Assembly (NCBI RefSeq): GCF_018446385.1
Contig: NC_055994.1
Location: 32,696,368 to 32,760,367, forward strand
Source: Zingiber officinale
Lineage: Eukaryota; Streptophyta; Magnoliopsida; Zingiberales; Zingiberaceae
Direction of reading: 5' to 3'
DNA: 64,000 nt
The position numbers and the translations under genes are program-made. How positions within the stretch are numbered: position 1 is the stretch's first letter; the number at the start of each line of letters is the position of its first letter. A model generated the notes under the pieces. The model saw nothing but the letters and a program-made list of their open reading frames with translations, was not told where the DNA came from and did no database searches. Shown here piece after piece: positions 8,252-61,200 of the stretch.

Positions 8252-8985
8252 TGCTACATCAATGATTTTCGATGTCGCTTAGTCTCGATGTGAATGTGAA
8301 GCATCGACATTGGCATAATATTGAGTTAGCTAAGCATATAAATGGGTTGGCACATTGGGAGGATGTGTTTGAGGCAGCAAAGTGTTTGTGGCATTGGACT
8401 TGCTTGAGTTAACAAGTCCAAATTCGAATGAGGCTCGAATTAGGTTGATTGGGGACACCTGTGGGGCAAATTCTAAAAGCTTGGGGCGGTTACAAGGAAG
8501 TTGGGGACACTTGGCAGCCTTCCAAGACAAGTGACATTCAGACATCCTGCATGCATGTGGCGGTGACACCCGTCAGCATTTATGTGGCGGTGACACCCGT
8601 CAGCATTTAGTGAAGGCAGTTATGCATGACGGTTACTCGAATTCTGCAACCGTTGTTGTAATGTATTTCATTTATATGGGCCATGAATTGCACAAGGTAT
8701 GGACATTCAGAAGTGATGAGCCTTCTTGTGTGTAAGCCATTGGTAGATTTTTCCTCGTATTGTGAACTATCGTGTTAGTGCAAGGTTGGGCAGTGTAGTC
8801 TGTAAATCATGTATTGCTTTCGCTTCTGCCTATGCATGCTTGGTTCTTGCGAGTTGTATTCCTTGAAAACATAATCAAGCACAAGACATCAAAATGTGAA
8901 AGGGTGATAGGCTTGGTGTGCGAGTCTACCCGCACAAGGGTGAGAATATCTGCAATAATCTGTTGCGTTTCATAATCCTGTGACA
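8252..8985 (+). repeat. 5' LTR of the chromovirus
   Basis: Starts TGCTACATCAATG, ends CCTGTGACA, 734 bp. Compared with the 3' LTR it lacks about 40 bp after GAATGTGAAGCATCGA, where the 3' LTR has an extra GACGTGTGAGTGCC... segment. This looks like a deletion between short direct repeats. It contains a duplicated GTGGCGGTGACACCCGTCAG word near 8558-8607 that the 3' LTR has only once. Confidence 0.85.
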
Positions 8986-8987
8986 AT

Positions 8988-9000
8988 TGGTATCAAAGCC
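8988..9000 (+). promoter_or_regulatory. Primer-binding site of the chromovirus
   Basis: TGGTATCAAAGCC begins two bases after the 5' LTR. It is one base from the usual plant initiator tRNA-Met complement TGGTATCAGAGCC. Confidence 0.8.
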
Positions 9001-14973: not shown

Positions 14974-15124
14974 ATAATCTAGTTGACTCATTTATCTTTT
15001 TAGTCCTAAACACCAACCCAAAATTTTATACACTAGAGTTAGTAGTAGTTTACCATATATACCTACATATCTCCTTTGTTTAGTCCACAACCTTTCATGT
15101 TAAACTAAACTAAGGGGTCATATT

Positions 15125-21455: not shown

Positions 21456-21507
21456 GTTATGCATATTCTTGAGTATAAAAGTAGAAAGTTCTGTCATTTC
21501 AAGTGAA

Positions 21508-25516: not shown

Positions 25517-25521
25517 TGAAT

Positions 25522-26056
25522 TGATAGTTCTCGTAAAACCTAGGCCGCATGAATTCTAAACAACCGAAATAAGAATTCGAATAGGAAAAACACGAACATA
25601 TGAGCATGAATCTTCGTTTCATCGAGAACATGACATAAGAAAGTAAATACTATAATTACAAAGAACCTGAATGCAGCGGAATTGTCATTGTTCTTCGTGT
25701 ACAGCTCGTCAATCCAATAATCCCGCGGAAGAAGAAGAAGGAGAAGAAGGAGAAGAAGGTTGGCCTTCCGGAGGGGTTAGGGTTGACGGCGCCGAATCCT
25801 CTTCGTCAACGGGGAACGAAGAGACGTCTAAAAGATTACCCTAATCCTCTGGGAACCAACCCTATATATAATGAACATCTATTATCAGCCTATCGATGAT
25901 AATAGATGCGGGACTATAGGTTCTACATATATGAGATTCACATCCAATTACCTGAAACCCACTAGACATAAGTTAGATCACTTTAAAGAGTTCGAATCAT
26001 ATTCACGTGTGCAACTTACAAATAAGCTCACCTAATAGGGATAATTATATCCAACA
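25522..26056 (-). repeat. 3' LTR of element E
   Basis: 535 bp, ends as for the partner at 36639-37155. Carries an extra GAAGGAGAA-type trinucleotide expansion at about 25735-25758 relative to the other LTR. A TATA-like TATATATA occurs near 25862-25869. Confidence 0.88.
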
Positions 26057-30854: not shown

Positions 30855-32331
30855 TGATAGGATCGAGTAGCGCGATAGAGGGGGGGGGGGGTGAATATCG
30901 CTTCTTTTTTTAAAACTATTCTTTTCGTATTTAAATCAAAGTCGTGCACAGCGGAAAGTAAATAGAGACACAAATGTTTTACTTCGTTCGGAGCCTAGCT
31001 CGACTCCTACTCGAAGGCCCGCGGTCTTTGACCGCACCGATGGGCAATCACTATATTTCTTCTTTCCGAAATCCTTCGAAAAGAAGCAAATCGTACAAGT
31101 ATGAGCAAGATAGTAACACCCTACTATCTTGCTTAAGTTAAATACAATGCAAGAAAAAAGTAAAGTTATACCGACAAGAAGATTGAAAGACAAAGCTTGT
31201 GGTCGGCACTTTCGGGCAATGTGGCTTGTTGAATTAACGAAGACGTGTAGCTCAAATTGCTTGCAGAACAGAGCTTTGGTTTTTCAGAAAAATTATCTTC
31301 GCCTCTGTCTTCGAGCCTGGTTTTATAGGTGGACTGAGGTTCGGTCGACCGATCCCTCTATTCGGTCGACCGAACCAGCTCCGATCACCCACAGCTGGAA
31401 TCTGACGCTGGCTCGTAAATTCTACATTAACTGGCCTTCAATGGTTCGATCGACCGAACCCTTTTATCGGTCGACCGAACAAGCTTTTACCTTGTTCGTC
31501 GAAGTATGCCAGAATCATGAATTAATGGGCAATTAATGTTGATTGGATCGGTCGACCGATCCCTAGGTTCGGTCGACCGATCAGCTTATTTCCTTTGCTT
31601 GCTGGTCGGTGCCGGTGAGCTGGCTTTGCTGAGTCATCAAGTTCGGTCGACCGATCTTACTATTCGGTCGACCGATCAAGCTTTGATCGAACTTTGACTT
31701 TGATCTGTTCTGAACTGTTTGCTTTATGTTATGCTCATGTTCGATCGACTGAACCGCTGGTTTGGTCGACCGATCCAGTCTGTCCTGCAACACAGTGTTA
31801 GAACAAAAACTTCCTGCAACACAGATGTTAGCACACAGCATAATAATGAATAAAAGACAGCATAATGAGTAATATAAAAGACAGCAATAGAACTGTCTTG
31901 ATCTCAACTTAGAAACCTTCTCGGTTTCTTCAGTTGGATCAGCGGCCTAAGGTTGTTCCCTCCGGGAACCCGACCTCACTGTCGCTCCTCCAGTTTGCTT
32001 ACCTCAACCTACCTGCCAAACTTTGATCCTCCAGATCTAGTTTGGACTTCTCACTCAGCCTTGATCGGCTCCCCAGGACTTTTTCTTTGATCTTCGGTCC
32101 TTCAGACCTCTCGATCACATTGCCAAGCTTCGTCTCCCGTCAACCTACTTGGACTTTCACCTGGGTTCCACAATCTGCTAAGATTTCTCCTGCCTAGCCT
32201 TCAACTAGGTCTTTCCCGGTTGAGTAAATATTCTGCACACTCAGTAAACTTGTTAGATCATAACTATACTTAACTTGAACCTTTGACAACATCAAAACTC
32301 AGGTTTGATTCTGGTGCATCTTGCACCAACA
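30855..32331 (-). mobile_element. Solo LTR C (palindrome-LTR family, TCGGTCGACCGA word)
   Basis: Plus-strand ends TGATAGGATCGAG and TTGCACCAACA; perfect 5-bp duplication TAGAT (30850-30854 and 32332-32336). The minus strand is the sense of the LTR, by similarity of the ends with LTRs A and B (start TGTTGGTGCAA, end ...TATTCACCCCCC...). Length 1477 bp. From 31341 to 31777 it has five doublets of the 12-bp palindrome TCGGTCGACCGA and variants. A TATAAAA box on the minus strand (31321-31327) follows. A G-run of 12 occurs at about 30881-30892. No coding capacity. Confidence 0.85.
31321..31327 (-). promoter_or_regulatory. TATA-like box of LTR C
   Basis: TATAAAA on the minus strand, about 14 bp downstream of the nearest TCGGTCGACCGA palindrome in the LTR sense. 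Confidence 0.55.
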
Positions 32332-36240: not shown

Positions 36241-36638
36241 ACATTCTATGGAAAAGATTGATCAACAAAAGTTAATCGGAAAAAAAATAATAACACTAAT
36301 AATTTTAATCGATTAAAAATAAATCCAATTGAGTGATAATTAATGTAATTACAGTTTACGATAAAAAATCAATTAAGAAAAATTATTAATCAATTTTTAT
36401 AAATTATATTCGATGTTTTAGGTTTGATAATCGATTGGTTGACTAAATCAATCCATTAAACCATCACTAATGGAAAATCAAGTCTTTCCTAGATTTTCTA
36501 TACAAAAGATTTCGATGATAAAAACTTTGTATTAACTAAGAAAAAACTTGATCTAGCATACAAATAACAAATCGACGAAAAACTTAAACTTTATTACCAA
36601 TGAAAATGACGAAACAGAACATTGGCTCTGATACCAAT

Positions 36639-37155
36639 TGATGGTTCTCGTAAAACCTAAGCCGTATGAATTCTAAACAACCGAAATAAGAATTTAAATA
36701 GGAAAAACAAGAACATATGAACATGGATCTTCGTTTTATCGAGAACATGATATAAGAAAGTAAATATTGTAATTACAAAGAATCTGAATGTAGCGGAATT
36801 GTCATTGTTCTTCGTGTATAGCTCGTCGATCCAATAATCCTGCGGAAGAAGAAGAAGGTTAGCCTTCTGGAGGAGTTAGAGTTGACGACGCCGAATCCTC
36901 TTTGTGAATGGGAAACGAAGAGACGACTCAAAGATTACCCTAATCTTCTAGGGACCAATCCTATATATTGTGAATATCTATTATCAACCCATCGATGATA
37001 ATAGATGTGGGACTATAGATTTTACACATATGAGATCTACATCCAATTATCCAAAATCCACTAGATATAAGTTAGATCACTTTAAAGGGTTCGGATCATA
37101 TTCACGTGTGCAACTTACAAATAAACTCATCTAATAGGAATAATTATATCCAACA
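36639..37155 (-). repeat. 5' LTR of element E
   Basis: 517 bp, TGATGGTTCTCG...ATATCCAACA; the initiator tRNA-Met site lies just inside at 36624-36636. Right flank repeats the host 32-bp unit. Confidence 0.88.
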
Positions 37156-40274: not shown

Positions 40275-43200
40275 TCAACTTCCAGAAGAGTCAACCTGGC
40301 TCCAAAGCATCTCTGCATAAACTCTCTCTTCATCGTTCTCCTCATTGGGAAAGATAGGTTCCTCAAACATTTCCTCCTCTCCAAGGAAATCCTTATCTTC
40401 CATACCATCTTCTGGTAAAGAATCATGTGGCAGAGACTGAAGAGTAGCTTCAGACAAGGCTTCACGCATGGCCTGTGCTGTTGCAGGCCTATCATCATCT
40501 TTGTATATTGGTGCAGGCATCACAAATGGAAGAATAATATCCTTAAGATTAAAGTTATTGACACTCTCTCTTTTGGAATGGTCAGTTGGGGGAACAATCA
40601 GGATCATTCCGAGCTCATAGTTACAGATATGCAATTTTGTAGTAGTAGAAGCTTCAGAAACCTTTGATTTGGATGAAGGTAGCAAGGTACGTCCCCAAGC
40701 AGCAGGACTGAAGTTGTGTGATCCAACATATATCCAGCCAAATGTGGTCATTCCATTTCCCGACAGGAATTGTCTCTGGGCTAGCTGTAGCAACTCACAC
40801 TCAGTAACAGACAACAGATACATAGAATTATGCAAAAAACAGAAGCAAATTAATATCTGGTGAAAGTACCTTGACGTGCATTGGGTACCCTACTCTTTCA
40901 CATGGACGAGGAACAGCATCATGAAATATACCAGCAATTTTTAGCCTTTGCCAAGTTTTCTGGGTAACAGTAGCAATTCAGTGTCAAAAAAATTTAGTCA
41001 AGCTGCAAATCACTCCTTATATTACAGCTGATAACTTAACAAATCTACCTAAAATTTTCAGTGGCAATAGCAAAAAGGGTAGCCTGACTAGGCAACAAAC
41101 CACATGTAGACAACAAGATGTCACATGGTGAATTAAGTACCTTGGAGAAATAATCATTGTGAGAGGTCCACAGTTGGAAACAGAAAAATGTTACTAGTAA
41201 GCCAGTAATTACTCGGAAGAAAAATAAAAGGTCCAAAATACAATTGTAACTATTGAAGAACACAATAAAATGGTTAACCTCTGAAAGAGAGAGCAAGCGT
41301 CTGGAACTGTGGATGCCACAGTGCCCATTTTTAACTCGTTCAATGGTGGGGAACAAGATCTTAATAGATGGTCGCTTTAGCTCATTAGCTATACTCCAGT
41401 GACCCCACTGGAATGATTTAAAAATAGTATCAAAATAACAAATGGAAGACAACATAAGAAAAAAAACAAAACAGTTTGATAAAGAGATAAGAGAATAGTA
41501 CTTCAGGATCAGACTCCTCAGAATCAGGATAGTAACAGGATTTTTTCCCAGCTGCAGCTGCGAAAGCAGAAAAAAAGGGCAAATCGACTGAAGCTCCAAT
41601 TGAGGATGCACCTTTACAACATAACAAAATGATAGTAAGATGAGGCATTATCTATTATCTAACTTAAAAATCAGCTAATGAATCTCACCATACACAAAAT
41701 CAACCTCTAGTGACTCAGGCCACCTATATTGAGACAAGACCTATTAAGAAGAAAATTTTACATAAGCTAGAAGCCATTAATTCTGTAATTTGGAGGAAAA
41801 GGAATTTGTTGTCTAAGAACTAAAATCAACTGAAATATCAAGTTGATAAAGTGACAGAAAATTCATCTAGCCTCTATCTTATTAAAAAATAAAATAAAAC
41901 AAAAAAGTTGATTTATAACAAGCAGTTCCATTTTCTGCAACTTCTCCATTTATTATGGCATGCTGATAATTGTGGATTATTTCCCGTCACTAACAGTTGA
42001 TCACCAGCATTGGAATAATCATAATAGATTGAGGGTTGTAATTGTCAGCCATATTGTTGTAACCAAAGATTCAAAAAGCATATGGCGGCATATGCAGTAT
42101 GTGAGGACATGTGCAGTTAGTAATTGTTCAAAGCAAAACTTAAAATCTCGTGTATTGAGAATCACGAGTTAGGCCTTTATATAGAAAAGAAGATATACAC
42201 CAAAAGACAAAAATACCCCTTTACTTATTCTAACACTCCCCCTCAAGCTTGAGAATATAGATCATACACACCAAGCTTGTTACATATGTAGTCAATCCGG
42301 AGACCTCTAAGTGATTTAGTGAATATATCTGCTAGCTGATCATTTAAGTTGACAAAACTAGTAGATATTTCTCCAGATATGACTTTCTCTCTGACAAAGT
42401 GACAGTCAACTTCAATATGCTTTGTTCTCTCATGGAAGACTGGATTTGAGGCAATATGCATAGCGGCCTGGTTGTCACATATGAGTGACATTTGTGTAAC
42501 CTCTCCAAACCTTAGTTCCTGAAGCAACTGTTTTAACCATATAAGTTCTTGACTAGCAATAGCCATAGCTCGATATTCTGTCTCTGCACTGGATCTTGCC
42601 ACAACATTTTGTTTTTTACTTTTCCAAGAAATAAGGTTACCTCCGACAAATATACAAAATCCAGAAGTGGATCTTCTATCAGAGGGAGATCCTGCCCAAT
42701 CTGCATCAGAATATCCTACGACTTGAGTATGTCCTTTGTCTTCATATAAAAAACCCTTTCCTGGTGCACCCCTGATATATCGAACAATGCGAGTCACTGC
42801 ATCCCAATGTTCTTTGCATGGAGAGCTAAGAAACTGACTTACTACACTTACTGCAAATGAGATATCCGGACGAGTGACAGTAAGATAGCTTAGTTTCCCT
42901 ACCAATCGCCTGTACTGTTCAGGATCTGAAAGAGGCTCCCCCTGATTTGGTAGGAGCTTGACATTAGGATCCATGGGATTATCGACTGTCTTCGAGTTTA
43001 ACATTCCTGTTTCTTCCAGAATATCCATTGCATACTTCCTTTGGGATATAATGATTCCATCTTTAGAGTGTGCCACTTCTATCCCTAGAAAATATTTGAG
43101 TTTGCCAAGATCTTTTGTCTGGAAATGTTTGAAGAGATGTTGTTTTACTTGTGAAATCCCAAGATGATCATTACCTGTGATGACAATATCATCAACATAA

Positions 43201-46200
43201 ACCACTACATAGATGCAACCAGTAGATGAGTGACGATAAAAAACAGAATGATCAGCCTCGCTTCGAGTCATGTCAAACTGTTGAATTACGGTACTAAATC
43301 TACTGAACCATGCTCTGGGTGACTGCTTGAGACCATATAAAGATTTCCGCAAGCGACATACAAGACCAGAAGACTCCCCCTGAGCAACAAAACACAGAGG
43401 TTGCTCCATGTAGACTTCCTCGAGCAGGTCACCATGTAAGAATGCATTTTTGATGTCCAACTGATGAAGGGGCCAATGACGAATTGCAGCAATAGACAAA
43501 AAAAGATGCACAGAAGACATCTTGGCAACAGGAGAAAATGTGTCTCCATAATCCAATCCAAATACCTGAGTGTAGCCTTTAGCGACAAGACGAGCCTTAA
43601 GCCGATCAACCGTGCCGTCTACACCAACTTTCACCGTAAACACCCATCGACAACCAACTACTGACTTTCCAGGAGGTAGAGGAACGAGGTCCCAAGTCCT
43701 ACTGCTCTGTAAGGCACTCATTTCATCAAGCATATCCTGTCTCCATCCTAAATGGGCAAAAGCATCACCTGCAGTCATTGGAAGAGAAACAGACAAGGAA
43801 GACAGACAATAATAATAGGATGAGGAAAGACGATGATAGCTTAAAGAAACATAGTGAGGAGAAGGATTACGAGTGGAACGCATACCCTTTCGAAGTGCAA
43901 TAGGAACATCAGAGTCAGGAGATGGGACCGGAGGAAACGGCGAAGGACTCGGCTCCAAAGATGTGCCCACAACAGTGTCAGTGTTGGTCGGCGGCAAAGC
44001 AGAACGAGGACGACGCTGATAAACATGCAAAGGAGGAGACGAGGCCGGAGATGATAGAGGCACCTCCGGAGGATAAAAGATAGTCACTGGTGCAAGTGGA
44101 GTGGGAGAAACCTCGGCCTGTGGAGTGGAAGGACCAAAAAAAGAAACCGACTCAAAGAATGTGACATCAGCAGAGATGAAGTACCGACGAAGAGTAGGTG
44201 AATAACACTTGTGTTCGCTCGGTGCTTGGCATTGCTTGGCGTTGATTGTTTCTTCAAGAATATGCAGCGGAAAATACAGAAACAAATACAACCACGCTAA
44301 CACTAGGATTTTACTTGGTATCCACCTCCAAAGGAGGTGACTAATCCAAGGATCCACACCACGCACGCACCCTCCACTATGAAACACTCCTTTTCGGTAA
44401 CTACCGAGGGCGGAGAAGCCCTACAAGACTCTCGGTACAAAAAGAAGGAAAGGGAAACAAAATACAAGCACAAAGCTTACAATGAATGCAGAAAACCCTA
44501 ACCCTAGCTTCTCTTGCCTTGATCCTCTTGACTTGGAGAGCTTCCAAGAACCTTCAAGAACCGCGATCACGAACTTTGAGGCCGTGGAGGAGGCGAAGAT
44601 CCGAGATGAAACGTGAAGAGACGCCGGAAATGAACGCCGCGCCTTTATCGACGCTTAACGGCCGATCCCGATCGATTCGAATGTTCCTAATCGATCGGGA
44701 GGCTTTGGATCGATCACGGATCGATCTTCCCAGCTAGCTGCCGATCGATCCACGGATCGATCCAGCGCTATCGCGCATGGCAACCCCCAATCGATCCACC
44801 GATCGATTGAACATCTGAATCGATCCACGGATCGATCGAGGTGCTCTGACCGGAAGACCCGGATCGATCCACCGATCGATCCAGCCTCGGATCGATCCAC
44901 CGATCGATCCAACACTGGTTTTTGCCCAAACCAAGTTCCAAGCCTCTCAAACCAACATCCGGTCAACCTCGACTGCTGGTACATCACGCCCAGCATCGGT
45001 CACCCTTCGACCGCTAGACTTCCCACCAAGTGTCCGTCAATCCCTTTGACCCACTTAGACTTTTCTATTCATGCCAAGTATCCGTCACCCTCGACCTACT
45101 GACTTCCATCGATTTCCGCGCCAAGTATCCAACAATCCTTCGACCTACTGACTTCCCAACACCGACGTCCGATCATCCTCGATCCATTCGTTCCTCGCCT
45201 GGCTTCACTCACCGGACTTTCACCCAGCTTCCTCACTAGGGTTTTCCATCCGCCTAGCTTCACTCACTAGGGCTTTCACCGACTTCACTCACCAGACTTT
45301 CACCCAGCTTCACCACTAGGTTTTCCTTCCGCCCGGCTTCACTCACTGTGACTTTCACCCAGCTTCACTCACTAGGGTTTTCACCGGTTTCACTCACCAG
45401 ACTTTCACCCAGCTTCACTCACTAGGGTTTTCCTTCTACCCGGCTTCACTCACCGGGACTTTCACCTAGCTTCACTCACTAGGTTTTCACCGGTTTCACT
45501 CACCAGACTTCCCTGTCAAGCATCCGTCAACCTCGACCTACTTGACTTTATTCAATCAATTTCTTATCACAAACATCTAAACTCAAACTAAGACTCACTG
45601 TCACCCAGTCAACCTCGACCGAGGGATGTGCACCAACAATCTCCCTTTTGATGTTCGACAATACCACAATAACACTTACAATACTACATGTAAGTTGGCT
45701 AATCCTATAGCCTCAATCTTCACGCCACTAGGTAATGAACATATAAATTAAGCTCTTCATTCTCCCCCTACGAGGGCACACTCCCTCTAGGTAATGAAAG
45801 CCTAACTTACACCCATTCATAGGTCCTTTCATTCTCCCCCTATTGGCACACATCAACCCATCTTTGGGCACACATCAACCCATGCCCCAATTTTGGGTAC
45901 AAATCAACAAATCCATTTGTTGACGACTCTCCCCCTGAAGAGTTACTCATCATTGTTCACAACATCACTCGTTGTGATCAACACGATAATGAAGGTCCCA
46001 TACCCTTCATTTATCCTTAACTTCTCCCTCAATGTAGACAAATACCCAACCTTGAGCATTATCTAACCACTTGAGTTCCCACTTGAAATAATGAGGATAT
46101 CCACTCCCCATTTCAAGTTCAAAAGCTCATACATGAGCATTTTCTTTAAAGAAGGTTAACCACCTTCCAAGGTTCATGAAAAGTAATTTTTCATGTCTTT

Positions 46201-49200
46201 AAAGAGTCCCTCCCCCTAAAGACATGGTGGTGACTTCTGTCATTGCACCAACAATGACTTGGAATCCCTAAACCTTTAGGAAACCCAAATTTAGAAGTTT
46301 TGAGGTTCAAATACTCAAAATTTGAAACAAACCTCAACCTTAACTTCAATAAAGCCTTCCTTAACCAATCCATCCTTGTTTCACACGAAAACACCCTTTA
46401 GATGTATACAAATGTATTTTAGGAGTTTGGAATGGTTACCTAGACTCAAAGAGGTTCAAAGATGCTGAAATCACTTCCCAGCCAAAATCAGCAACTTGGA
46501 TCGATTGGAGTTGGGTTCAATCGATTGAACCTTTTCAATCGATCCACCGATCGATTCAGACACCGGATCGATCGGTCGATCGATCCAATCAGCTTCGCGG
46601 GAGACTTGCTTTCCGAATCGATCCACGGATCGATTCGGCACTCCAATCGATCCATGGATCGATCGAGCTCGATAGTTGCTGAAATTCCATTTCACTCAAC
46701 TTAAACCCCTAGAAAATTCTACAAAATCCAAAAATCATGAAATTTCGAGGACATTATTTAGGCATACTTAATCATGGAAAAATAGCTTTCATTAAAATAC
46801 ATCATATTTTCAAAGATTGACACAAACTTGAAAACTTGCAAAAACTTTAGTGTTTTTCTTCAAGTTTGTGTCTAACTATTCAATGGTGATTACTATCAAA
46901 AGATAGCCTTCACCAAGGTTTTCCAAAAACATTTTAAAACATTTTCAAAACCAATATCCCATCATGTTCCTTGGGCATAATGCACATGACTTGTACATTA
47001 GCTTTCCCAATGATGGGAAAACACATAACTATGTGTTTTGATGAACCTAAAAACTCAAAAGAATGCACTAAATCAACATCTTGAGCTTTGTTCATCATCC
47101 TAACATCTCACTTGTATCTAATGTGCACTAATCACATACAAGTCACCTTATAGTCTTTGTGAGATGTAGATTTTGGTTTTTGCCCTAATCTAGGGATCAT
47201 GCATATCTATCTAGGCATTTTAGAAATATTAGACATCCACCTAGGATGTCACTTGTCAATAATTGTTGTTAAATGCCATTTGTCCTTAATTACAAGGAAT
47301 TAAACTTAATGCATGATAATGTTATGACATACATCAAAATAAAATAATTTTCAAAAGAAAAATATTCTATAACTACATGATGTATGAATGTCATGACATG
47401 GTATTTTTGGATTTTTCATAATAAAACATGAATGCAAAACTAGACATGATGTCATGGCATATGATGGGCAAACAATCATGGCAAGATTTAACATAAATAA
47501 AATATACCTAGATTAACTATCTAAGTATCCTTAAAGTCTTAGCTAAACTTACAACTTAAACCTAGATTTCCCTAAAGTGCTTCAAGAGAATGTCAAAGCC
47601 TAAATTGGCATTTCTAATTTCCTTGATTTGTTTATGCCACTTAATAATTAAACATATCCTCAAATGTTGGCATATTTCATTTTTCCACAAGAGTAGCACT
47701 AAGAAAATACCAAAATCCCAACTTGGTATTTCTTACATTTTTCTAATTTGTGCCTTTTTAAGATAAAATCAATTTTTCCACCAATAGACACATGTTACTC
47801 TTTCAAGAAATAATCAATAGGTCCATTTCATTTTCAAAGGTTAACTAAAACCTTGAAAATGCTCCTTGAGTGTCAATTTCCTCAAAGTTAGGTTAACTAC
47901 CCTTCTAATCGGAGTTGACACTCTCTAACCCATCTATGGGGTAGAGAAGATGCTCCTAGGAACCCAACACCTATTGGTGCTCCTGATGCTCTAGGTACTC
48001 ACTAGGATAACTTCCCAGATACCTTCCTAGTGACCTTGTTGGGCTTCTGTAAGCCTCGGGTCACGCTTTCTAGGTCAACTCTAGGATAGCTTCCTCAGAG
48101 CCTTCTGTGACTTTCTTAGACTTCTGAAGTCTTAGTCACATTTATTGCAAAAATACTCTTAGGGATGACTTCCCTAGTATTCTTGGCTTGACCACTAGAC
48201 CTAGGGTTTGTTCCATAACTATATGGAACTCTATAGTAAGAGGGCACATCCTTCTTAGCCTTTGGTTTGTATCCCAAACCTCTATGGCCATTAGATGACC
48301 TTTGTGCTCCTAGACCTAGGCTATGCTCATTTTGCCTTTTAGGATATTTTCCATCCTTTTAGGGTCCTTTCCATTTTATCAAGCCTCGACCTCAAGACTT
48401 GATTTTCATCACTAAGTCCTTAGTTTTAAATTTTTCATTTGATTCACGAGCATATTTGTTTTTGGGCTTGTATCTAAAATCTTTAGAGTTATTGCCCAAG
48501 TGTCTATCTACCTTCCTAACCTTAGGTTGGGTAGTTTTGGCAAGAGCCACATGTTTTTCTTTAAAGCCCTCATGCTTTCTATTCTTATGGTAAATTGCAT
48601 TAAAATGATAAAAGTTAGAACTATCATGCTTTTCACCATAATGTAAGGGGCAGCTCAATAAATGTTACCTTCTTCTTTACCTTGGAGGCTCCCCCTTTAA
48701 TTGAGTCTTGACCATCTTCTTCCCCTGGGGCATTGACTCGTAATGCCCCTTTGATTGCAAGAGAAGCACACAATGTGCCCTTGCTCTTCTTTGTCCGGAT
48801 GGTCTCCTTGAGCTTCCTTTCCTTGTGCCATTCGCCCTTTTCGGCCAATTGGGGCACTTGCCTCATAGTGCCCATGTTCCCACATTCAAAGCATATAATA
48901 TGATTTTATTATTAATGAAATGTTTATACCTTCGTAGGGGTGGCATCTTCCTTTGGATCCGGAGGTGAAGCTTCCTCTTGATCCGATCTTGATTCTCCTC
49001 CATTTGATTTTTCTTGACTCGTGGAGGTAGAAGCTTCTTCAATCTCTTCATCTCTTGACCGGATGTAGAAACTTCTCCTTCTTCTCGATCCGGCGTCACC
49101 AAGGATGCTCTCCCTCGATCCCAGAGGTGGAGGCTTCATCATCTTGAATATGAAACAAGGAGTATGCTCCTCCTTGTTCCCTTCGCATTCCTTGAGGATG

Positions 49201-52200
49201 AAGCTCGATTTCTTCTTCTTCTGAGGTTGAGCATCTCAACCTCGAGTCCTCCTCGATCTTGCTCCAAAGAGTCACCCTCCCTGGATTCTTCTTGCTGCAG
49301 GGGATCTCTTCATGAAGCTTCGCCAATTTGCTCCATAGTTCCTTTGCGTCTTCAAATTCTCCAATTTTGCGAAGGATGGTTTGGCAATAAATTGACCAAA
49401 AGCTTGGTCACTTTGTCATTGGCCTCGCACCTTTGGACTTGCTCTTGGCTCCACTTGCTCCTCTTGAGAACTTTGCCCTTTGTCTTGGAGTCTTGAAGCC
49501 TTCCATAAGAGCAAACCATTGCTCTATCTCCATCATAAGAAAATTTTCGATTCTTGATTTCCAAGAATCAAACTTGTAAGTGTATGGTGGAGTCACCTTG
49601 TGTCAAATCCAAGTCCATCTTGAATTGCATCTGAAGTTGAGCTTGATAAAATCTTGAACTCAAGAATTTGCTCCAACTTCTTCACCCTCTAGCTTTTCTT
49701 GTTATGCTTGACCCTTCCCGATGATTCCGTGAAAAGCGGCCTCGCCTCGATACCACTGTTAGACCAAAAGTAGCTGAGGGGGTGAATAGCTCGTCGCGTT
49801 AGCTCGGTGCTTGGCGTTGCTCGTTGATTGTTTCTTCAAGAATACGCAGTGGAAAATACGTAAACAAATACAACCACGCTAACACTAGGATTTTACTTGG
49901 TATCCACCTCCAAAGGAGGTGACTAATCCAAGGATCCACACCACGCACGCACCCTCCACTATGAAACACACTCCTCTATAACTACCGAGGCGGAGAAGCC
50001 CTACAAGACTCTCAAGAAGAAGGAAAGGGAAACAAAATACAAGCACAAAGCTTACAATGAATGCAGAAACCCTAACCCTAGCTTCTTCTTGCCTTTCCAC
50101 CTCTTGACTCGGAGAGCTTCCAAGAACCTTCAAGAATGGCGATCACGAACTTGAGAGGCCGAGGAGTCGCAAGATCCGAGATGAAACGGTGAAGAGACGC
50201 CAAGGAAATGAACGCTGCGGCCTTTATCGACGCTTAACGGCGATCCCGATCGATTCGAATGTTCCCAATCGATCGGGAGGCTTTCGGATCGATCCACGGA
50301 TCGATCCAGCGCCTATGCTCGAAACGCCCGGATCGATCCACGGATCGATCCACGGATCGATCCAGACTCGCCCCAATCGATCCACCGATCGATTGAATAT
50401 CCGGATCGATCCACGGATCGATCCGCAGTCCTCGGATCTCTAGGAAGCCCGGATCGATCCACCGATCGATCCAGCCCTCGATCGATCCGATCGATCCAAC
50501 ACTTGGTTTTGCCCAAAACCAAGTTCCAGCCTCTCAAACCAACATCCGGTCAACCTCGACCTGTTGGTACATCACGCCTAGCATCCGGTCACCCTTGACC
50601 TGCTAGGACTTCCCACCAAGTGTCCGGTCAATCCTTTGACCCACTTAGACTTTTCTATTCATGCCAAGTATCCGTCACCCTCGACCTACTGGACTTCCAT
50701 CGATTTCCTCGTGCAAGTATCCATCAATCCTTCGACCTACTGGACTTCCCAACACCGGATGTCCGATCATCCTCGATCCATTTGGTCATCCCTTGCTTCA
50801 CTCACCGGGACTTTCACCCAGCTTCACTCACTAGGGTTTTCCATCCGCCAGCTTCACTCACTAGGCTTTCACCGCTTCACTCACCGTGACTTTCACCCAG
50901 CTTCACCATTGTGGTTTTCCTTACCGGCTTCACTCACCAGGACTTTCACCTAGCTTCACTCACTAGGGTTTTCACCTGGTTTCACTCACCAGGACTTTCA
51001 CCTAACTTCACTCACTAGGGTTTTCCTTCTGCCTGGCTTCACTCACCAGGACTTTCACCTAGCTTCACTCACTAGGGTTTTCCTTCTGCCTGGCTTCACT
51101 CACCAGGACTTTCACCTAGCTTCACTCACTAGGGTTTTCACCTGGTTTCACTCACCAGGACTTCCCTGTCAAGTATCCGGTCAACCTTGACCTACTTGAC
51201 TCTTCTTCAATCAATTTCTTATTGTCAAACATCTAAACTCAAACCAAGACTCAGCTTGGTCACTCAGGTCAACCTTGACCTGAGGGATGTTGCACCAACA
51301 ACTTGTACCCTTTCTGAGACCGTGGGTACCCAAGGAAGACACACTTATGAGACCGGGGAGAGAGTTTATCAATACCGGGATCAAGAGCATGAGCAAAACA
51401 AATAGAACCAAAGACCCGAGGTGGTAGAGAATGAAGGGACTGATGTGGATAAAGTACCTGATGAGGTATCTTACCCTGGAGAGTGGAAGAAGGCATGCGA
51501 TTAATGAGATAACACGCAGTAAGTACGGCATCACCCCAAAACTGATGAGGGACATGAGAATGGAGAAGAAGAGTCCGAGTGGTTTCAAGGAGATGACGAT
51601 TCTTGCGTTGTGCAACCCCATTCTGTTGAGGGGTATGAGGGCAAGACGTGCGATGCAACACACCATGAGATGTTAAGAATGTACGAAACTGAGTAGACAA
51701 ATACTCGCGTGTATTATCACTTTGTAAAGTTCGAAGGGAAGTACCAAATTGAGTTTTTATTTCAAGGAAAAAGGATTCAAAAATAGAAAACAATTCTGAA
51801 CGATCCTTCATCAAATATAACCATGTACAACGGGAAAAATCGTCTATAAAAGTAACAAAATATCTTGACCCCATTGTAAAAGAAACACGACTCGGACCCC
51901 AAACATCAGAATGAACCAAAGCAAAAGGAGACATAGCCCAACTCTCAATACGAGGAGAAAAAGAACAATAAACATGCTTACCTAATTGACACGACTCACA
52001 AGATAAGGATCAATGATCGCGGCTAGAGAGGGGGGTGTGAATAGCCGACCCCAAATCTTCCGTTTCTTTCTACGATTAGGGTTAGCGCAGCGGAAATAAA
52101 ATGAATAGAAACGAAAGCGGAGAATAGCAAACCTCAAACTCGTCGATGTAACGAGGTTCGGAGATGAAACTCCTACTCCTCGGCGTGTCCGTAAGGTGGA

Positions 52201-55200
52201 CGAATCCAATCAATCCGTCGGTGGATGAGACCCCGGAGAACCGGCTAATGTAACACTCCTTCTGGGTGGAGAAACCTCGCCACAATGTTTTGCAAAAACA
52301 ATACAGGAGTAGAAAGCAGCAAGAAGCAAAATACAATACAAATGTATGAAACACCTTTGCTTACTTGCCTTCTCTTCGACCGGATGAAGCAGCAGCTTCT
52401 CGGATCCAACCACAACAGCAACAGCAACTGATCAGTTGGTCCCAGCCGAGTGGAAGCTCACAAAAAGCTTCAGGAACGAAGAGCTCAGCAAAGCTCGTAG
52501 AAGAACTTGCAGCAGCAAGAAGAAACAGAGAGGAAGAAGAAGCGTTTGAGAGAGTCGCCCTCGATCTCCTTTTATACCTGCATCCACCTGCGAAGAAGCC
52601 GTAAGATGTAAGAAGATGTAAGACCGCATGCGAGCCAAGATAGTTACCGATCAGCTCCAACCCGATCGGTCACACCGCCCCTCGATCGGTCTTGGGACCG
52701 ATCAAAGAGCCGGACCGATCAAAGGTATGTCCCGATCGGTCTCGAAGACCCCGATCGTCTCGGGACCGATCGATGCTTTTCTCCCGAACTTCGCCTTCTC
52801 GATCGTTGTTTACGATCGGTCCGCAGACCGATCGATAACACTCGAGGCTATCGCTGATTACCGATCGGTCACCGCATCGATCCGGATACCATCGATCACC
52901 GATCGATCCACCGATCGATCCGATGGGTTTTTGCCCAAACCAAGTCCCAAGCCTTCCAAACCAACATCCGGTCAACCTCGACTCTTGACTAGCATCCGGT
53001 CATCCTCGACCCGCTAAGACTCCCCACCAAGTGTCCGGTCAACCTTTGACCCACTTGACTTTTCTCTTCGTGCAAGTATCCGGTCACTCCCTCGACCTAC
53101 TTGACCTTCTCAACACCGGATATCCGATCACCCTCGATCCATCTGGATTTTCCTCGCCCGGCTTCACTCACCGTGACTTTCACCCAGCTTCACTCACTAG
53201 GATTTTCACCGCTTCACTCACTGCACTCCAATCCGCCGGCCCACTCACCAGACTTTCCAACCGCCTCGCTTCACCTACCAGACTTTCCCACCGTCCCGCT
53301 TCACTCACCGTGACTTTCCCACCGCCTCGACTTCACTCACCAGGTCTTCCCAACCGCCTAGCTTCACTCACCGGACTTTCTCCAACCGCCCGCTTCACTC
53401 ACCGGGACTTTCACTTTCACCCAGCTTCACTCACTAGGATTTTCACCGCTTCACTCACCAGATTTTCACCCGGCTTCACTCACCGTGACTTTCCGAACCG
53501 CCCGGCTTCACTCACTGTGACTTTCACTTTACTATCCGATTAGACTTCCCAACAAGTATCCGGCCAACCTCGACCTACTCGATTCTTCTTCATCCAACCC
53601 GATCGCACCGATCAAGATCTCTCCGCACGGACAACCGCACCGCATCGTCCATGTTCACATGCTTCTACAAACATCGAAACCACACCAAGGTTTACGCTTG
53701 GTCAACTAGGTCAACCTTGACCTACTGGAAATTGCACCAACAATCTCCCCCTTTTTGATGTTTGACAATACCTTTAAGTTAGGCTAATCCAATAGCCTCA
53801 ACTTTCTTCATGCCACTAGGTAATGAAACATAAGTTACAACCTTACATTCTCCTTCTAAGAAGGCAACCTCCTTCTTAGATAATGAAGGCCTAACTTAAA
53901 CTCTTCATTCTCCCCCTATTGGCACACATCAACAAACTCTCCCCCTGAAGAGTAAGTTATCGTTGTTCACAACTTCACTCGTTGTGATCAACAAACTCTC
54001 CCACTAACTCCAATGTTCTTCCTTGAACATTCTCTAGACATTCTCCATTCTCCCCCTTTTTGACACACATCAAAAAGAGTGAATCAAGGTCAAGAGTTTC
54101 TTCCTAATGAAAGTCCCATACCTTTCATTGAAACCCTTAATTTCCCCTCGATACTAATGCCAATAGTCAATTTAGTGATAATCCCATATCACTCATGACA
54201 ACTCCCCCTAAAGGTCAACTCCCCCTTGACCATTGCATCAACAATGTCTTGGAGAGTTTCAAACCTTTAGAAACTCTAAAACACCATTCCCGAGCTGAAA
54301 TTTCAGACAACCATCGAATTTCAGCAAGACGCCTGATCGGCCACCGGACCGATCAGGCTCCCTCTGGATCGGTCCAGTGACCGATCCACACAGACCTGGA
54401 CCGATCAGGGAACCTCCTGATCGGTCCACGACCTCTGATTTCTGATTTCTGAATTTTTCTTCTCCCGAAATTCAGAAACCTCTAGAAAATCACAGAAAAT
54501 TTCAAAAATTGTAAAATTTTGAGGATACATTCCTCATAACATATACTATCATGGAAAAATAGTTTTCTATGAAAATAACTTCCATTTTCAAATCTTGATA
54601 CAAAGTTCAAAAGTCTTTGAAATAGCTCAAAGTTAATCACTCTTTGTATCACTTTGCTCAATGATGAATGCTATCACTAGAAAAGCTTCATCAAGGTTTT
54701 TCAAATCAATTTTAAAATGATTTTAAACCCTTTAATTTGGGACCACAATCTTAGGGCTAAATGTACATGACTTGTACACAAGCTTTCCCTATGATCCCCA
54801 ATTAGAATTAGGCTTATCTAGGTACAAGAACTATGCACCTTGATCCTAACTCACAATCCTAATATCTCACACACATCTAAGGTGTATCAAATACATTCAA
54901 GTCAATTTTGATGTGAGATATGGGTTTAGGTCATCTTAAGCTAAGTTCTCATGCATTTTCTAAACAACAATTTGATTTCCATATCAAATTATGTTTTTGT
55001 CCTTAAATCAAATTAATTGATTATAAATGCAAAAGATGATGACATGGCATAAAATAGTATCATAAATGAAAACATGTGCCAATGTCATGATGTCATGGCA
55101 TAAAGTGTGAAACTTAACTAGAGAATGACATATAAATAACTTAAGCATTATCATGACATTTCAAATGATGATAAATTAAGTATGATGTCATGACATGGCA

Positions 55201-58200
55201 TATGGCAAGCAATATATGGCAAATAACACGTAAAGGTATAGAAAATACCTAACTCTAGCCTTAGTTGCCATTTTTGATCATTTTGCCATAAAATCCATAT
55301 TCCTAAGTGTATTAGACCTAAAATCATATACTAAGGATTTTTAGATCACTATGTGCCAATTAGATTGACCCTAGAAAACTCTTCAATTGTGATTGGCATA
55401 TCCTAAACACCTTAGGAATAATTTTCCATTTCATTTCCAAGGCTTGATTACACCTTGAAAATTCCTAAAGTGCCACCTTTTGCCATGATTAGGTTAACTA
55501 CCTATTCAAGTAAGGTTGGCACACCCTAACTCATCTAGCGTGATGAAATCACGTTCCTAGGAACCCAATACCTATTTGAGCTCATCGGGTTCACTAAATA
55601 TTCACTAGGGATGACTTCCCTAGCAACCCTTCTAATGACCCTCCTAGGCTTTGAAGCCTTGGTCATTTGGGACTCATCAAGATCAACTCTAGAGGTGACT
55701 CCCCTTGTGACCTTGGTGATGGTCTTCCTAGTCCTAGGTTTTGTTTCATAATCGAATGGAACATCATGGTAAGTGGGCTTGACCACTTAGAACTTAGGTT
55801 TGTGACCTTTCTTGTCCTTGGACTTGGGTTTTTGACCCCTAGACTCTAGAGTCAAATCCTCAAGAGCCTTTTCTAGAGAGTCAAGTCTTGACCTCAAGAC
55901 TTGATTTTCTTTCTCTAATACCTCAAGCTTTAATTTATCATTTTTCTTTGAGGTATTCCTAGGCATATGTCTAGATGATTTTGGATTTCTACCTAGATTT
56001 TCCTTAGCCTTAGATGGGTTAATTCTAGGGTTGGCTTTCCTAGTGTTATCCTTATCTAGGCTCACATGTTTGGCACCTAAGCATGTGTATCGATTTCTAA
56101 TGTTATCATGTTTACCATTATTAACAATAGCAATAAGGCTACTAGCATGTGTCTTATTATTATTGCAATAATGTGCCTTAGAGATTACCTTAGGGTTTGC
56201 CTTAGCTCCCCCTATCGATGTGCTCGTCTTCTTGTCCTTGTGAGGTTGCCTCCCCTTCGGACATTGGCTCCGATAATGTCCCCTTCGCTTGCATTGAAAG
56301 CACACCACGTGCTCCTTGCTCTTGCGTGTCGGGACTCCGGCTTCCTTGACCTTTGGCGCCGGTGGAGTCTTCCTAATCCTCTTTGGACACTTACTCTTGT
56401 AATGCCCAAATTCCCTACACTCAAAGCACATTATGTGTAATTTATTTGAAATTAAATGGCTTGAGTTACCTAGGGTTGAGGATGGATGTGAGCTCTCTTC
56501 TTCATCCCTTCTGGAGATAGAAGCTTCTTCCCCTTGCTCCATTCTTGAAGAGGAACTCTCCTCCTCTTCTTCCTTAGATGTTGAGTAGCCCTCAACCTCT
56601 AAATCCATGCCTCCATGATGTGAACTCCTTGGCTCACTTGACTCCTCTTCATGGCTTGAAGTGGAGTTCCCCTCATGGAACTTAGCCAAGTTGTTCCACA
56701 ACTCCTTGGCATTGTTGTATCCACCTATCCTATACAAAACATCATTAGGTAAAGAAAATTCAAAAATTTTCAATACCTCATCGTTGACTAGGGATTGGTG
56801 GACTTGTTCCTTGGTCCACTCCTTCTTCTCTAAGGTTTCTCCTTTCTTGTCCATCGGAGGCTTGAAACCTAATTGAACACAACTCCAATTTTCAAGGTTA
56901 GTCATAAGAAAGTACTTCATTCTTACCTTCCAAAACGCGAAGTCGTCGCGATCGTAGAAAGGTGGAATTGTGACGTCTTCCCCAAATAACTCCATTCTCT
57001 AGCTCGTGCTCCCCCGGGTGTTGATCCAACGAAGAGCGACCTCGCTCTGATACCACTTGTTAGGATCGATGATCGCGGCTAGAGAGGGGGGTGTGAATAG
57101 CCGACCCCAAATCTTCCGTTTCTTTCTACGATTAGGGTTAGCGCAGCGGAAATAAAATGAATAGAAACGAAAATGAAGAATAGCAAACCTCAAACTCGTC
57201 GATGTAACGAGGTTCGGAGATGAAACTCCTACTCCTCGGCGTGTCCGTAAGGTGGACGAATCCAATCAATCCGTCGGTGGATGAGACCCCGGAGAACCGG
57301 CTAATGTAACACTCCTTCTGGGTGGAGAAACCTCGCCACAATGTTTTGTAAAAACAATACAGGAGTAGAAAGCAGCAAGAAGCAAAATACAATACAAATG
57401 TATGAAACACCTTTGCTTACTTGCCTTCTCTTCGACCGGATGAAGCAGCAGCTTCTCGGATCCAACCACAACAAAGAATAAAGAATAAAGAATCGATCAC
57501 TGTCCCAGTGGAAGCTCACAAAAGCTTCAGAACTAAGAGCTCAAAGAAAGTCGCAGAAGAACTTGCAGCAGCAAGCTGCTCAATCTCGCAAGATTGGCCA
57601 TGCTGATCGAATGACTCTATGAGCCTCATCCTCAAGACGGACAGGACTCACTTGAAGCTCTGCTCCCCCTCTCTCGATCAGCCCAACCCGATCGGCAGGT
57701 TCTGGGATCAGCATGGGCTTGTTAGACCACCCATGAATTCTCCCCTGGGGGTTGTTGCTACGACCCTTCGGTTCTATATCTCGATCGACTCATGAGAGCA
57801 CATCGTTTAGTTATCGACCCAACCACTCAATGACCGTTAGCCCATTCCCATCAATATAATACGATGACATCGATCGATCCGTAGCTTGGCTTTTGCCCAA
57901 ACCAAGTCCTAAGCCTTCCAAACCAACATCCGTCAACTTGAACTGTTGGTACATCATGCTTAGCATCCGCCACTCGACCGCTAAGACTCCCACCAAGTGT
58001 CCGGTCAACCTTCGACCCACTTGGACTTTTTCTTCGTGTCAAGCATCCGGCCACCCTCGACCTACTTGACCTTCTCAACACCAGATATCCGATCACCCTT
58101 GATCCATCTGGATTTTCCCTTGCCCGGCTTCACTCACCAGGACTTTCACCTAGCTTCACTCACTAGGATTTTCACCTGGCTTCACTCACCAGAATTTCCA

Positions 58201-61200
58201 ATCTGCCCGGCTTCACTCACCAGGACTTTCCAACTGCCTGGCTTCACCTACCAGGACTTTCCCACTGTCTGGCTTCACTCACCAGGACTTTCCCACTGCC
58301 TGGCTTCACTCACCAGGTCTTCCCAACTGCCTAGCTTCACTCACCAGGACTTTCTCCAACTGCCTGATTTCACTCACCAGGACTTTCACTTTCACCTAGC
58401 TTCACTCACTAGGATTTTCACCTGGCTTCACTCACCAGGATTTCCTGACTGCCTGGCTTCACTCACCAGGACTTTCCGAACTGCCTGACTTCACTCACCA
58501 GGACTTTACGAACTGCCTAACATCCCAGTTAAGACTTCCCAGTCAAGTATCCGGTCAACCTTGACCTACTTGATTCTTCTTCATCCAACCTGATCAGACC
58601 CTGATCAGTATCTCTTCGCATGGACAGCTGCACCTGCATTGTCCATGTCTACATGTCTTTCTGTATTGTCAAACATCGAAATCATGACCAAGGTTTACGC
58701 TTGGTCAACTAGGTCAACCTTGACCTACTGGAAATTGCACCAACAATAAGGACTCTAAGTGAGAAAGACTAGGATGTAATTGTTTTAACTTATTAAGACC
58801 TGGATGTCCCAACTGAGCATGAATAAGAAGTGGAGATGCCGCCGCCGAACCAACAAAAGAGGGTTGTTGAAGCCGATACAGGCCACGAGATTCACATCCG
58901 AAGCCAATCATCCTCCCCGTACTCCGGTCCTGTAAGGAAACAGACGTGTTAGTAAAAGAAATGACACAATCAAGAGATCGAGTAAGTTGACTTATTGACA
59001 ACAAATTAAAGGGAGCTCCGGGAACATAAAGAACATTATGAATTGAAAGAGATGAAGAAGGATGAACAATACCAATACCCTGGGATTGAGTTTGGGAACC
59101 ATTGGCCATGGTGACCATTGACAAATTACCAGAAGTAGTAAGAGAAGAAAATAGGGAATCATTACCAGTGATATGATCAGTGACCCCTGAATCAAGAACC
59201 CAAGAATCTGAAGAACGAGATATGCCGGCAAAGGAATTACCAGCGTGTGCAACAGTAGCAGTGGAATCAGAAGTCTGACGATCCTCAAACCATTTTAGAA
59301 AGTCATTATAGGAAGGTAGTGGGGTCGACTCCGGTGTTAAATGTGAAGCAGAAGCTGAGGGAGCAACAGAACTCTGAACAATCTGAGCAGCGCGAGGAGG
59401 TCGACCATGTAGACTCCAACACTTATCAATTGTGTGTCCCGGTCGGTGGCAATGATCACACCAAGGACGCCCTTTGCCACCCTTGCGAGGTGGAGGTTTG
59501 TTGTTGTGTCGAGAGACCAAAGTCGACGAGTCGACGGAGAATGAAGAAGGCATCGTCAAGACTTTGGCCGAGACACGGAGAAGAGTCGCCCAGGTGTTGT
59601 CCATGGTAGCTTCTATGAGGCTGCCCTGGATCTGGTCACGGACATGAGAATAATCTGTGGGCAGACCATATAAAGCCAGAAACATAATAAATTTCTTCCG
59701 ATTTTCAAGCTCTTCAACAGGATTGGCCGCAGGTGGGAGCAGTTCATTAAAGTCACAAAGAAGGCTAGAGACTGAACCCAGATAAGTTGACATTGAATCC
59801 TTAATCTGATGGGTGCTGAGGATGGTCATGAGATCTTCACAAACTTGATAGAGGCGCCGAGAGGTGTTTGTAAAGAGTTGTTGAGCCTGTGTCCAAACAG
59901 TTTTGCAAGTTTTGTGAGTACGGAAGACATTTCTAAGAGATGGATGGATGGTGGCTCGGATAATACAACACAACTGAGCATCAACTTTCTTCCAAAGAGG
60001 AAGATCGGCGACTTGAATATTTTCTTCAGTTTGAGTGAGATGTGTCTCATAACCCTGTCCAACAAGCCAAAGTTCAATGTGAGATGCCCAGGAAATATAA
60101 TTTTTACCGTCCAACTGCTCGGAGGAAAGAGGTGCAGTATTATGGTTGGTAAAGATTGAGGTATCTAGTTTTGGTGCACTGGACGTAGCCATGAATAGAG
60201 CTTGTGGACTGCTGGTGACAGGGCAGAAGAAAAAAAACCAGAGGTTGCTGATTCAGTCTCTCGTTGAAGAAGATTTTTTTATTGAGGACCAGGTATCATC
60301 AGCAGCTACATCAAGAAGAGCTTCTACAGGTTCTGCAAGGGCTTTATTAAGTTGGCCCTGTGATCATATATGTTCAAAGCAAGATGAACATATAGCAGAA
60401 GAAAAACAGCGGCTGCTTAGAGAAAGGAAACTTGGCGTCGCAAGAGGGAACTGCTGATATGTGGAATAACAACCCTACTCTCCTGTCGCGGCGTTGCCCA
60501 AAAGGAGGTTGTGTGAGGCTCTTGGTTGTAAGAGGGTGCGCTTCGATCATCCGGAGGTACCAACTCAAGAACCCATTCCGGATGGGGACAAATGAAGAAA
60601 TCGCACCGGCGGCGCCGGCGGCAATCGAAGCGGCGGAGGAAGCAAAGGCGAAAACGGCAACAGAAGCGGAAGCGATGGGAGAGCTGAAGATCGAAGAAGA
60701 GGGCGCGGGCGGCGACAATCGCGAGCATGACGACTTAATGCAGGAGAGGTTGAGCTTGAAGGAGAGGAGGTGCGATCTCGCAGATCTCCTCGTGCGCGGC
60801 CTTGGCAGATCGTAGAGGCAACCGGAGGGCGGAGCGAGAAAGGCGGCGCGACGTGCTCCACAGGCGAGAGAGGAGAACGCGACCTCTGCTATGGCTCGGC
60901 GGCTACGAGATGGCGAGGAGAGGAGAGATTTCCGAACCAGTGAGAAGAAAGCAGAGCCAGCACGCCAGGAGATTGCAGCAGGAGATCGCGATGAGAGGGA
61001 TGGCGTCACGGCGGTCCTGTGGAGATAGACGTCGCACGACAAAAACCTAAAATTAAAAACTAGGGAAAGAAATTAGAGTTTTGGCTCTGATACCATGTTC
61101 AAAGCAAAACCTAAAATCTCGTGTATTGAGAACCACGAATTAGGCCTTTATATAGAAAAGAAGATATACACCAAAAGACAAAAATACCCCTTTACTTATT

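Follow-up and report, generated by a model that had tools for sequence, protein, structure and literature searches.

Why should several retrotransposon families, lying within one stretch of the ginger genome, each carry a dense run of short palindromes ahead of the TATA box of their long terminal repeats (LTRs), and what might these runs do? The stretch, hereafter the window, comprises 64,000 nucleotides of Zingiber officinale (contig NC_055994.1, positions 32,696,368 to 32,760,367), and an earlier note made from its sequence had pointed to such arrays in four LTR families, A to D. Palindrome arrays are present at all four places, and almost certainly they are RM-box arrays of four Sirevirus (Ty1/copia) LTR families, RM boxes being the repeated palindromic motifs that occur in Sirevirus LTRs, with one word per element, before the TATA box (PMC2829016, Bousios et al. 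2010). The earlier note knew of no prior description, but that paper describes such arrays and tabulates 13 words; since our arrays match its account and Sirevirus marks accompany them, the phenomenon is already known and the four families are further members. What remains of interest is how their words are built, how strictly each family keeps its own, and which function these features favour.

The arrays, their frequency and their carriers

Both A and B are minus-strand elements with two LTRs each. The arrays and related stretches are as follows.

44662-44910, minus strand: array of the A 3' LTR, with units GATCGATC-N4-GATCGATC, the spacer being N3 in one of them; 44708-44909 holds six units at 0-2 mismatches
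44789-44808, minus strand: one of these six units, with both arms altered, AATCGATC-cacc-GATCGATT
50287-50496, minus strand: array of the A 5' LTR, its word identical to that of the A 3' LTR
46537-46664, minus strand: internal linker of A, four A-type units, about 0.9 kb upstream of the A 3' LTR
52646-52921, minus strand: array of the B 3' LTR, with exact B units at 52684-52703 and 52814-52833 and further half-sites; other units are an A-type unit at 52901-52920 and a two-mismatch unit at 52863-52882
54335-54386, minus strand: internal linker of B, two B-type units, one exact and one with one mismatch
57575-57868, minus strand: corresponding stretch of the B 5' LTR, with no array left (predicted RNA folding z -0.39)
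31341-31777, minus strand: C array, five doublets of TCGGTCGACCGA-like words at a 21-bp pitch, inside a solo LTR (about 32331-30855) with ATCTA on either side
5156-5340, plus strand: D array, seven GAAGGCGCCTTC-like words with 0-2 mismatches at spacings of 22, 17, 22, 22, 68 and 22, in what looks like a solo LTR (about 4780-5692)

That the arrays exceed chance is settled by genome-wide counts in the window's own 3.09-Gb assembly, where each pattern read backwards served as control. The B unit with a spacer of N0-30 occurs 212,117 times (control 4), the C word 47,023 times (23), the D word 27,524 times (44) and the A word 105,818 times (13,265), and pairs of exact C words separated by N0-30 are found at 10,221 places (control 0). 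Across the whole window there are 505 perfect palindromes of at least 8 bp, compared with 245-268 in five first-order Markov simulations, and a 400-bp scan places the six densest CpG-palindrome stretches at the two A LTR arrays, the A linker, C, B and D. When palindromes of the same minimum length were counted stretch by stretch against 1000 first-order Markov simulations with each stretch's own composition, C, with 10 perfect palindromes (simulated mean 1.80, maximum 7), was the sole stretch above every simulation; D, with 4 (mean 0.74, maximum 4), ties the maximum, and A (12; mean 3.98, maximum 14) and B (6; mean 2.75, maximum 10) lie inside the simulated range because the words themselves set the composition of the stretch. 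A de novo word search of 264 kb, of which 160 kb had been fetched with word C, returned 10 C arrays, one A array and two weak three-member sets; it did not recover the arrays of B, D and the A 3' LTR in the window, and its sensitivity is therefore low.

Counted by eye in LTR sense, the A array ends 12 bp before a TATA-like GATAAAGG (44649-44642), B 69 bp before TATAAAA (52576-52570), C 13 bp before TATAAAA (31327-31321) and D 27 bp before a TATA-like TATTTAAAG (5368-5376). The order proposed earlier, of an array followed by a TATA-like box, is found in all four, with gaps of 12-69 bp, and a canonical TATA is present only in B and C. The words are not strictly tied to the TATA box, however, as the earlier note would have had it, for those of A and B also occur in internal linkers; among 20 loci fetched with the B unit, three carry it in the linker, at 89-92% identity to that of the window.

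The identity of the carriers is indicated by the polypurine tract (PPT) and primer binding site (PBS) of B, whose marks follow the definitions of PMC2829016, in which the PBS junction reads CA/A(T or G)TGG-TATCAGAGC.

53741-53752, minus strand: PPT octamer of B with an exact AT/TG attachment site
53745-54226, minus strand: six PPT octamers AGGGGGAG in the B linker, five of them beyond the one at the attachment site
57044-57058, minus strand: 5' LTR/PBS junction of B, ...CA/AGTGG/TATCAGAGC, exact

In A there are four PPT octamers between 45762 and 46217; its attachment site is degenerate (two mismatches, 45637-45648), as is its 5' LTR/PBS junction in the window, TATCGAGGC. A C-rich integrase signal stands near the 3' end of the LTR in the window's B, C and D and in the A 5' LTR, the A 3' copy being degraded, and apart from the likely host gene treated below Pfam returned copia-type domains only. 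Telling against the identity, the short fetched loci show Sirevirus marks unevenly. None of the 20 B loci shows the C-rich signal, which occurs in 10 of 16 loci in A and likewise in C, and in 9 of 12 in D; a loose pattern gives junction-like matches in 5 of 16 A, 2 of 12 D, 8 of 16 C and 0 of 20 B loci; and a looser pattern for PPT plus attachment site is matched in 5 of 16 C loci and 1 of 12 D loci but in none of the 16 A and 20 B loci, those of A, B and D being just 1.2-1.5 kb long.

Half-sites, spacers and word purity

The B word consists of 8-bp arms, GATCGGTC and GACCGATC, around a spacer, and is not itself a palindrome. In the 132 units from the 20 fetched loci and the window the spacer is mostly N4 (97 units), with N3 in 15, N5 in 13, N2 in 6 and N7 in 1, and its sequence is free, there being 71 distinct spacers. 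The 8-4-8 layout recurs in A, whose arms are GATCGATC and whose ATCGAT cores most commonly lie 12 bp apart (92 cases), and the C word is made of the B arms with a spacer of 0. Expressed as half-sites, TCGGTC/GACCGA is found in B (spacer 4) and C (spacer 0), TCGATC/GATCGA of A (spacer 4) is a one-base variant of it, and GAAGGC/GCCTTC of D (spacer 0) differs from all three; the CGG-CCG core is present in B and C, but not in A (ATCGAT) or D (GGCGCC). Words A, B and C are spacing or one-letter variants of one shared half-word. The contention that the families share an architecture but not the word can be kept for D, then, and has to be given up for A to C. Similarly, the description of all the words as self-complementary fails for B, being two arms around a spacer, and the D array is not CpG-rich (observed-to-expected CpG ratio 0.69; whole window 0.67; A, B and C arrays 1.65, 1.75 and 1.42).

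The earlier note's view that the words are family-specific is supported within our sample. This comprised 68 loci (18 A, 21 B, 16 C and 13 D), 63 fetched by their own word and five from the window, and within these loci, picked by word as they were, each LTR family nearly always keeps its own: all 81 units in A, all 108 in C, all 49 in D and 113 of 123 in B, which is the least pure, with seven A-type and three C-type units among its 10 exceptions. Free mixing of words within LTRs was not seen in this sample, nor are the arrays one simple tandem satellite.

Word and flank do not simply agree. The flanks of A and B LTRs align at 77-84% identity, yet their words differ. In C, the last word lies 10-14 bp from the TATA box in 10 clusters and 58-61 bp from it in 6 (the orientation of L014 being uncertain); none of 60 pairs of upstream flanks from the two groups aligns, and downstream only short pieces do, yet both groups keep the word and the 21-bp pitch. 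Orientation in C was taken from the nearer TATA-like match, so short distances are favoured, and L005 (no orientation), L009 (one word) and a three-word match inside the window's A were left out of the clusters. The B-unit loci are also mixed in their surroundings: besides the three linker copies, nine of the 20 lie in LTRs like the window's B, seven do not align with it and one aligns over 34 bp alone. Eleven of these 20 loci were left out of oriented counts.

The 21-bp pitch of C is solid. Adjacent C words are 21 bp apart in 60 cases, the next commonest value having 7. A separate tally of C pairs holds 62 at a pitch of 21 and three at 20, and its other 60 entries (17, 24, 25) are mostly shifted-register matches to the same doublets. 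Among the 50 doublet matches listed, the spacer is 9 bp in 46 and 8 bp in two, and the remaining two span 42 bp. We also observed that the 9-bp spacer is directional in LTR sense, starting with AC and ending with GGA in most of the 62 pairs (L005-L020 and the window), so that the doublet has a polarity despite its symmetric words. D words stand 17-26 bp apart, with a mode of 20-22, and B units recur at gaps of 32, 40-41, 46-48 and 53 bp. Among 11 trial periods, the highest resultant length was 0.69 for A, at 10.5-10.75 bp, and 0.34 for B, at 10.25-10.5 bp, with a phase near 0, and it fell to 0.25 and 0.14 when each distinct gap was counted once. As a general rule we rejected helical phasing at 10.5 bp, for it depends on a few recurrent gaps and 46-48 bp is not a whole number of turns.

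These patterns bear on whether the arrays have any function at all. They could have arisen neutrally, by template switching in reverse transcription or repair followed by amplification through unequal exchange, with words that drift and serve nothing. The one-base drift between the words of A and B, in flanks 77-84% alike, would suit this, as would the A units in which both arms have changed together, and the decay of C words is like that of silenced copies: among 119 C words there are 90 changes, 39 of them C>T and 40 G>A (79 together), and three fall at A/T positions, as would be expected of methylated, silenced copies. We nevertheless consider a neutral origin improbable. Drift alone leaves unexplained a half-site common to Vitis and rice elements; the position before TATA is held, and the pitch stays at exactly 21 bp where the flanks cease to align; and in our sample other words are absent from A, C and D arrays.

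Binding or pairing

The reading we favour, with a probability of about 0.55, is that the arrays are sites for a dimeric factor, placed in U3, that drive transcription, and that small RNAs derived from the hairpins are a by-product. Each box would be an operator of two half-sites, bound by a dimeric and probably host-encoded DNA-binding factor, and families would differ in the half-site and in the spacer between half-sites. Many such boxes upstream of the TATA box, and in the linker, would raise transcription of the element by activating its promoter. The U3 RNA would also fold strongly, because each box is an inverted repeat, and might become a substrate for host small-RNA silencing. This reading is favoured because the half-site is common to distant plants, because spacer length is held while its sequence is free, and because the boxes are of high copy number and lie before TATA; a B spacer held at 4 bp in most units but free in sequence is as expected for paired half-sites. 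It is also suited by the single word that each family keeps, by the retention of the C word and its pitch in LTR groups with unalignable upstream flanks, and by the symmetry of C, which ends with the word itself.

Several observations weigh against a dimeric factor. The boxes in linkers are not beside any TATA box that we identified. The B pairs at positions ±1 and ±2 outside the arms co-vary, as described below, which a sequence-specific factor does not require. No shared binding site for a single factor was found by the authors of PMC2829016. The polyC mark appears in none of the 20 fetched B loci, each of which covers 1.2 kb, so that the mark may lie outside. Finally, helical phasing across families is suggestive only.

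It is possible, if rather doubtful, that the arrays are kept instead for pairing, either as U3 RNA hairpins with a role in the element's RNA or mainly as templates for host small RNAs. The hairpins would have an 8-10-bp stem and a 4-nt loop in A and B, and a 12-bp stem and 9-nt loop for each C doublet. Predicted RNA folding, scored as z against 60 dinucleotide shuffles, agrees with this in giving -8.24 and -8.36 for A, -6.16 for the B 3' LTR, -11.11 for C and -8.65 for D, compared with -0.55, -2.35 and -1.07 in three control stretches and -0.39 in the B 5' LTR; any inverted repeat, however, folds strongly. Maize work likewise ties such palindromes to hairpins and small RNAs (PMC10760457).

Covariation is a further argument for pairing, seen in B, with little or none in A and C. 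After removal of redundant units (52 of 100 in B, 89 of 108 in A), the two base pairs just outside the B arms are complementary in 0.73 of the 48 remaining units, compared with 0.34 and 0.42 when partners were shuffled and 0.47 and 0.45 when they were shuffled within a locus (0 of 1000 in each case); pairs farther out in B show no clear covariation. Three symmetric types account for 27 of 44 B units, and so a few inherited types could mimic covariation. Among the 19 non-redundant A units no flank pair stands out except that at ±6 (p 0.02), the A signal being otherwise lost with redundancy. Inside the loop, the inner pair is less complementary than when shuffled in A (0.11, shuffled 0.45) and slightly so in B (0.25, shuffled 0.37; p 0.04). 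In the redundant sets, changes to both arms are commoner than chance, with 25 in B (16 of them complementary; 7.9 expected) and 22 in A (16 complementary; 7.3 expected), and the A unit with both arms altered recurs. For C the argument fails: dyad co-changes number 6 where 4.5 are expected (p 0.29), a test limited by C words having been picked at few mismatches, and selection on pairing in inserted C copies is not supported. The C word is flanked on each side mostly by A, not by complementary bases, and so its symmetry stops at the word.

The direction of single changes can be read in the same way, since tolerance of G-U pairs in RNA would favour C>T. One-sided, non-redundant changes in A, in LTR sense, comprise 10 C>T and 2 G>A (p 0.039), a weak hint of such tolerance, but no such bias was found in B (7 and 8, with 9 of 20 loci orientable) or, from the counts given above, in C.

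The earlier note had also raised an RNA dimerisation or packaging code, in which like palindromes in U3 would pair like genomes. Genomic RNA carries U3 at its 3' end, and the words are family-specific in our sample, as such a code would have it. Kissing loops, however, should be self-complementary, and the 4-nt loops are not enriched for this: 6 of 70 in B (9.0 expected) and 2 of 67 in A (19.8 expected). These loop counts give kissing-loop dimerisation no support, and we hold a dimerisation code to be very improbable.

Neighbouring elements and known Sirevirus systems

The LTRs of B (5' 57058-58745, 3' 52006-53742) align at their ends with 85-94% identity, the 5' copy lacking the palindrome array and TATA region; a scan of the window found no recognisable array in it, although the 3' LTR keeps one. 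Upstream of the palindromes, the U3 of A and B includes a degenerate tandem repeat of GGTGAGTGAAGCCAGG-like units (45137-45510, 50791-51163, 53145-53527 and 58110-58518) and quasi-palindromes without CpG, of the AGGTCAAGGTTGACC type (e.g., 51195-51167); one three-member set of the latter was found de novo near 2914 of L019. A and B themselves look to be nested inside a short-LTR copia element, whose LTR pair would be a 111-bp direct repeat of 97% identity (42125-42235 and 61096-61206), with a PBS-like site at 61084-61095 and AGGGGGAG at 42236-42243; the open reading frame (ORF) with an RVT_2 domain at 42243-44420 would belong to the element so bounded. The solo LTR of C lies inside an LTR-like pair of 87% identity (25519-26056 and 36636-37155; PBS TGGTATCAGAGC at 36625-36636), between whose repeats there are RVT_2 and gag_pre-integrase ORFs. 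A further direct-repeat pair of 86% identity (8373-8987 and 14398-14975) has a PBS-like site with one mismatch at 8988-8999, and an ORF at 21430-22695 with a PP2C phosphatase domain (Pfam, E 1.8e-19) is likely to be a host gene.

With RM boxes as known, our arrays share a dyad word of high copy number, a single word for each element, a place in the upper LTR before TATA and further copies in the linker. PMC2829016 reports at least 8 copies in each element and as many as 32, often over CpG islands, with additional linker copies in elements that have ENV; linker copies of the word occur in A and B, and the CpG ratio is higher than that of the window over the A, B and C arrays and close to it over D. 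The array begins 200-400 bp into the LTR in that paper, which D fits (377 bp by our own count), A, B and C starting later (728, 821 and 554 bp). Of the 13 words in its Table 3, Vitis CGGTCGACCG equals the core of word C, Osr10 CGGTCTGACCG and Osr8 CGGTCAGACCG have the half-site of that word with one spacer base, and Osr9 is readable, by our own reading, as 8-4-8 like A and B. Tnd-1 ACAATCGATTGT, the sole exception there to the CGG-CCG core, resembles A in having no CGG. The table as printed does not contain words A, B or D.

A term search of the main text of PMC2829016 found neither half-site spacers nor box-to-box pitch, and our literature search recognised no other paper as treating the pitch; we claim no priority. 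From the words now available we would tentatively suggest a grammar of RM boxes as half-site multiplied by spacer length, in which TCGGTC/GACCGA serves monocot and eudicot Sireviruses with a spacer of 0, 1 or 4. What sets families apart would then be chiefly the geometry of the dimer, recognised by a single conserved class of host factors, with C doublets two helical turns apart, and half-site drift under retained symmetry would give rise to new words. PMC2829016 left RM-box function open, its authors proposing a role in regulating the promoter, in line with the enhancer reading of the earlier note. In the ginger genome one box type, with fixed arms around a free spacer, exists in more than 200,000 copies, alongside a sister type that has the B half-sites without a spacer (C). 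Together they make two predictions directly testable: a single dimeric binder with family-specific spacer tolerance, and maintenance by pairing where the arms co-vary.

A second parallel comes from maize. The Sireviruses Ji, Opie and Giepum carry fast-evolving palindrome clusters in the regulatory region of the LTR (PMC10760457 and PMC5311732). The likeness to ginger lies in clustered LTR palindromes with strong predicted structure, and the difference in the word, which in maize is CACCGGACNNNGTCCGGTG (PMC10760457).

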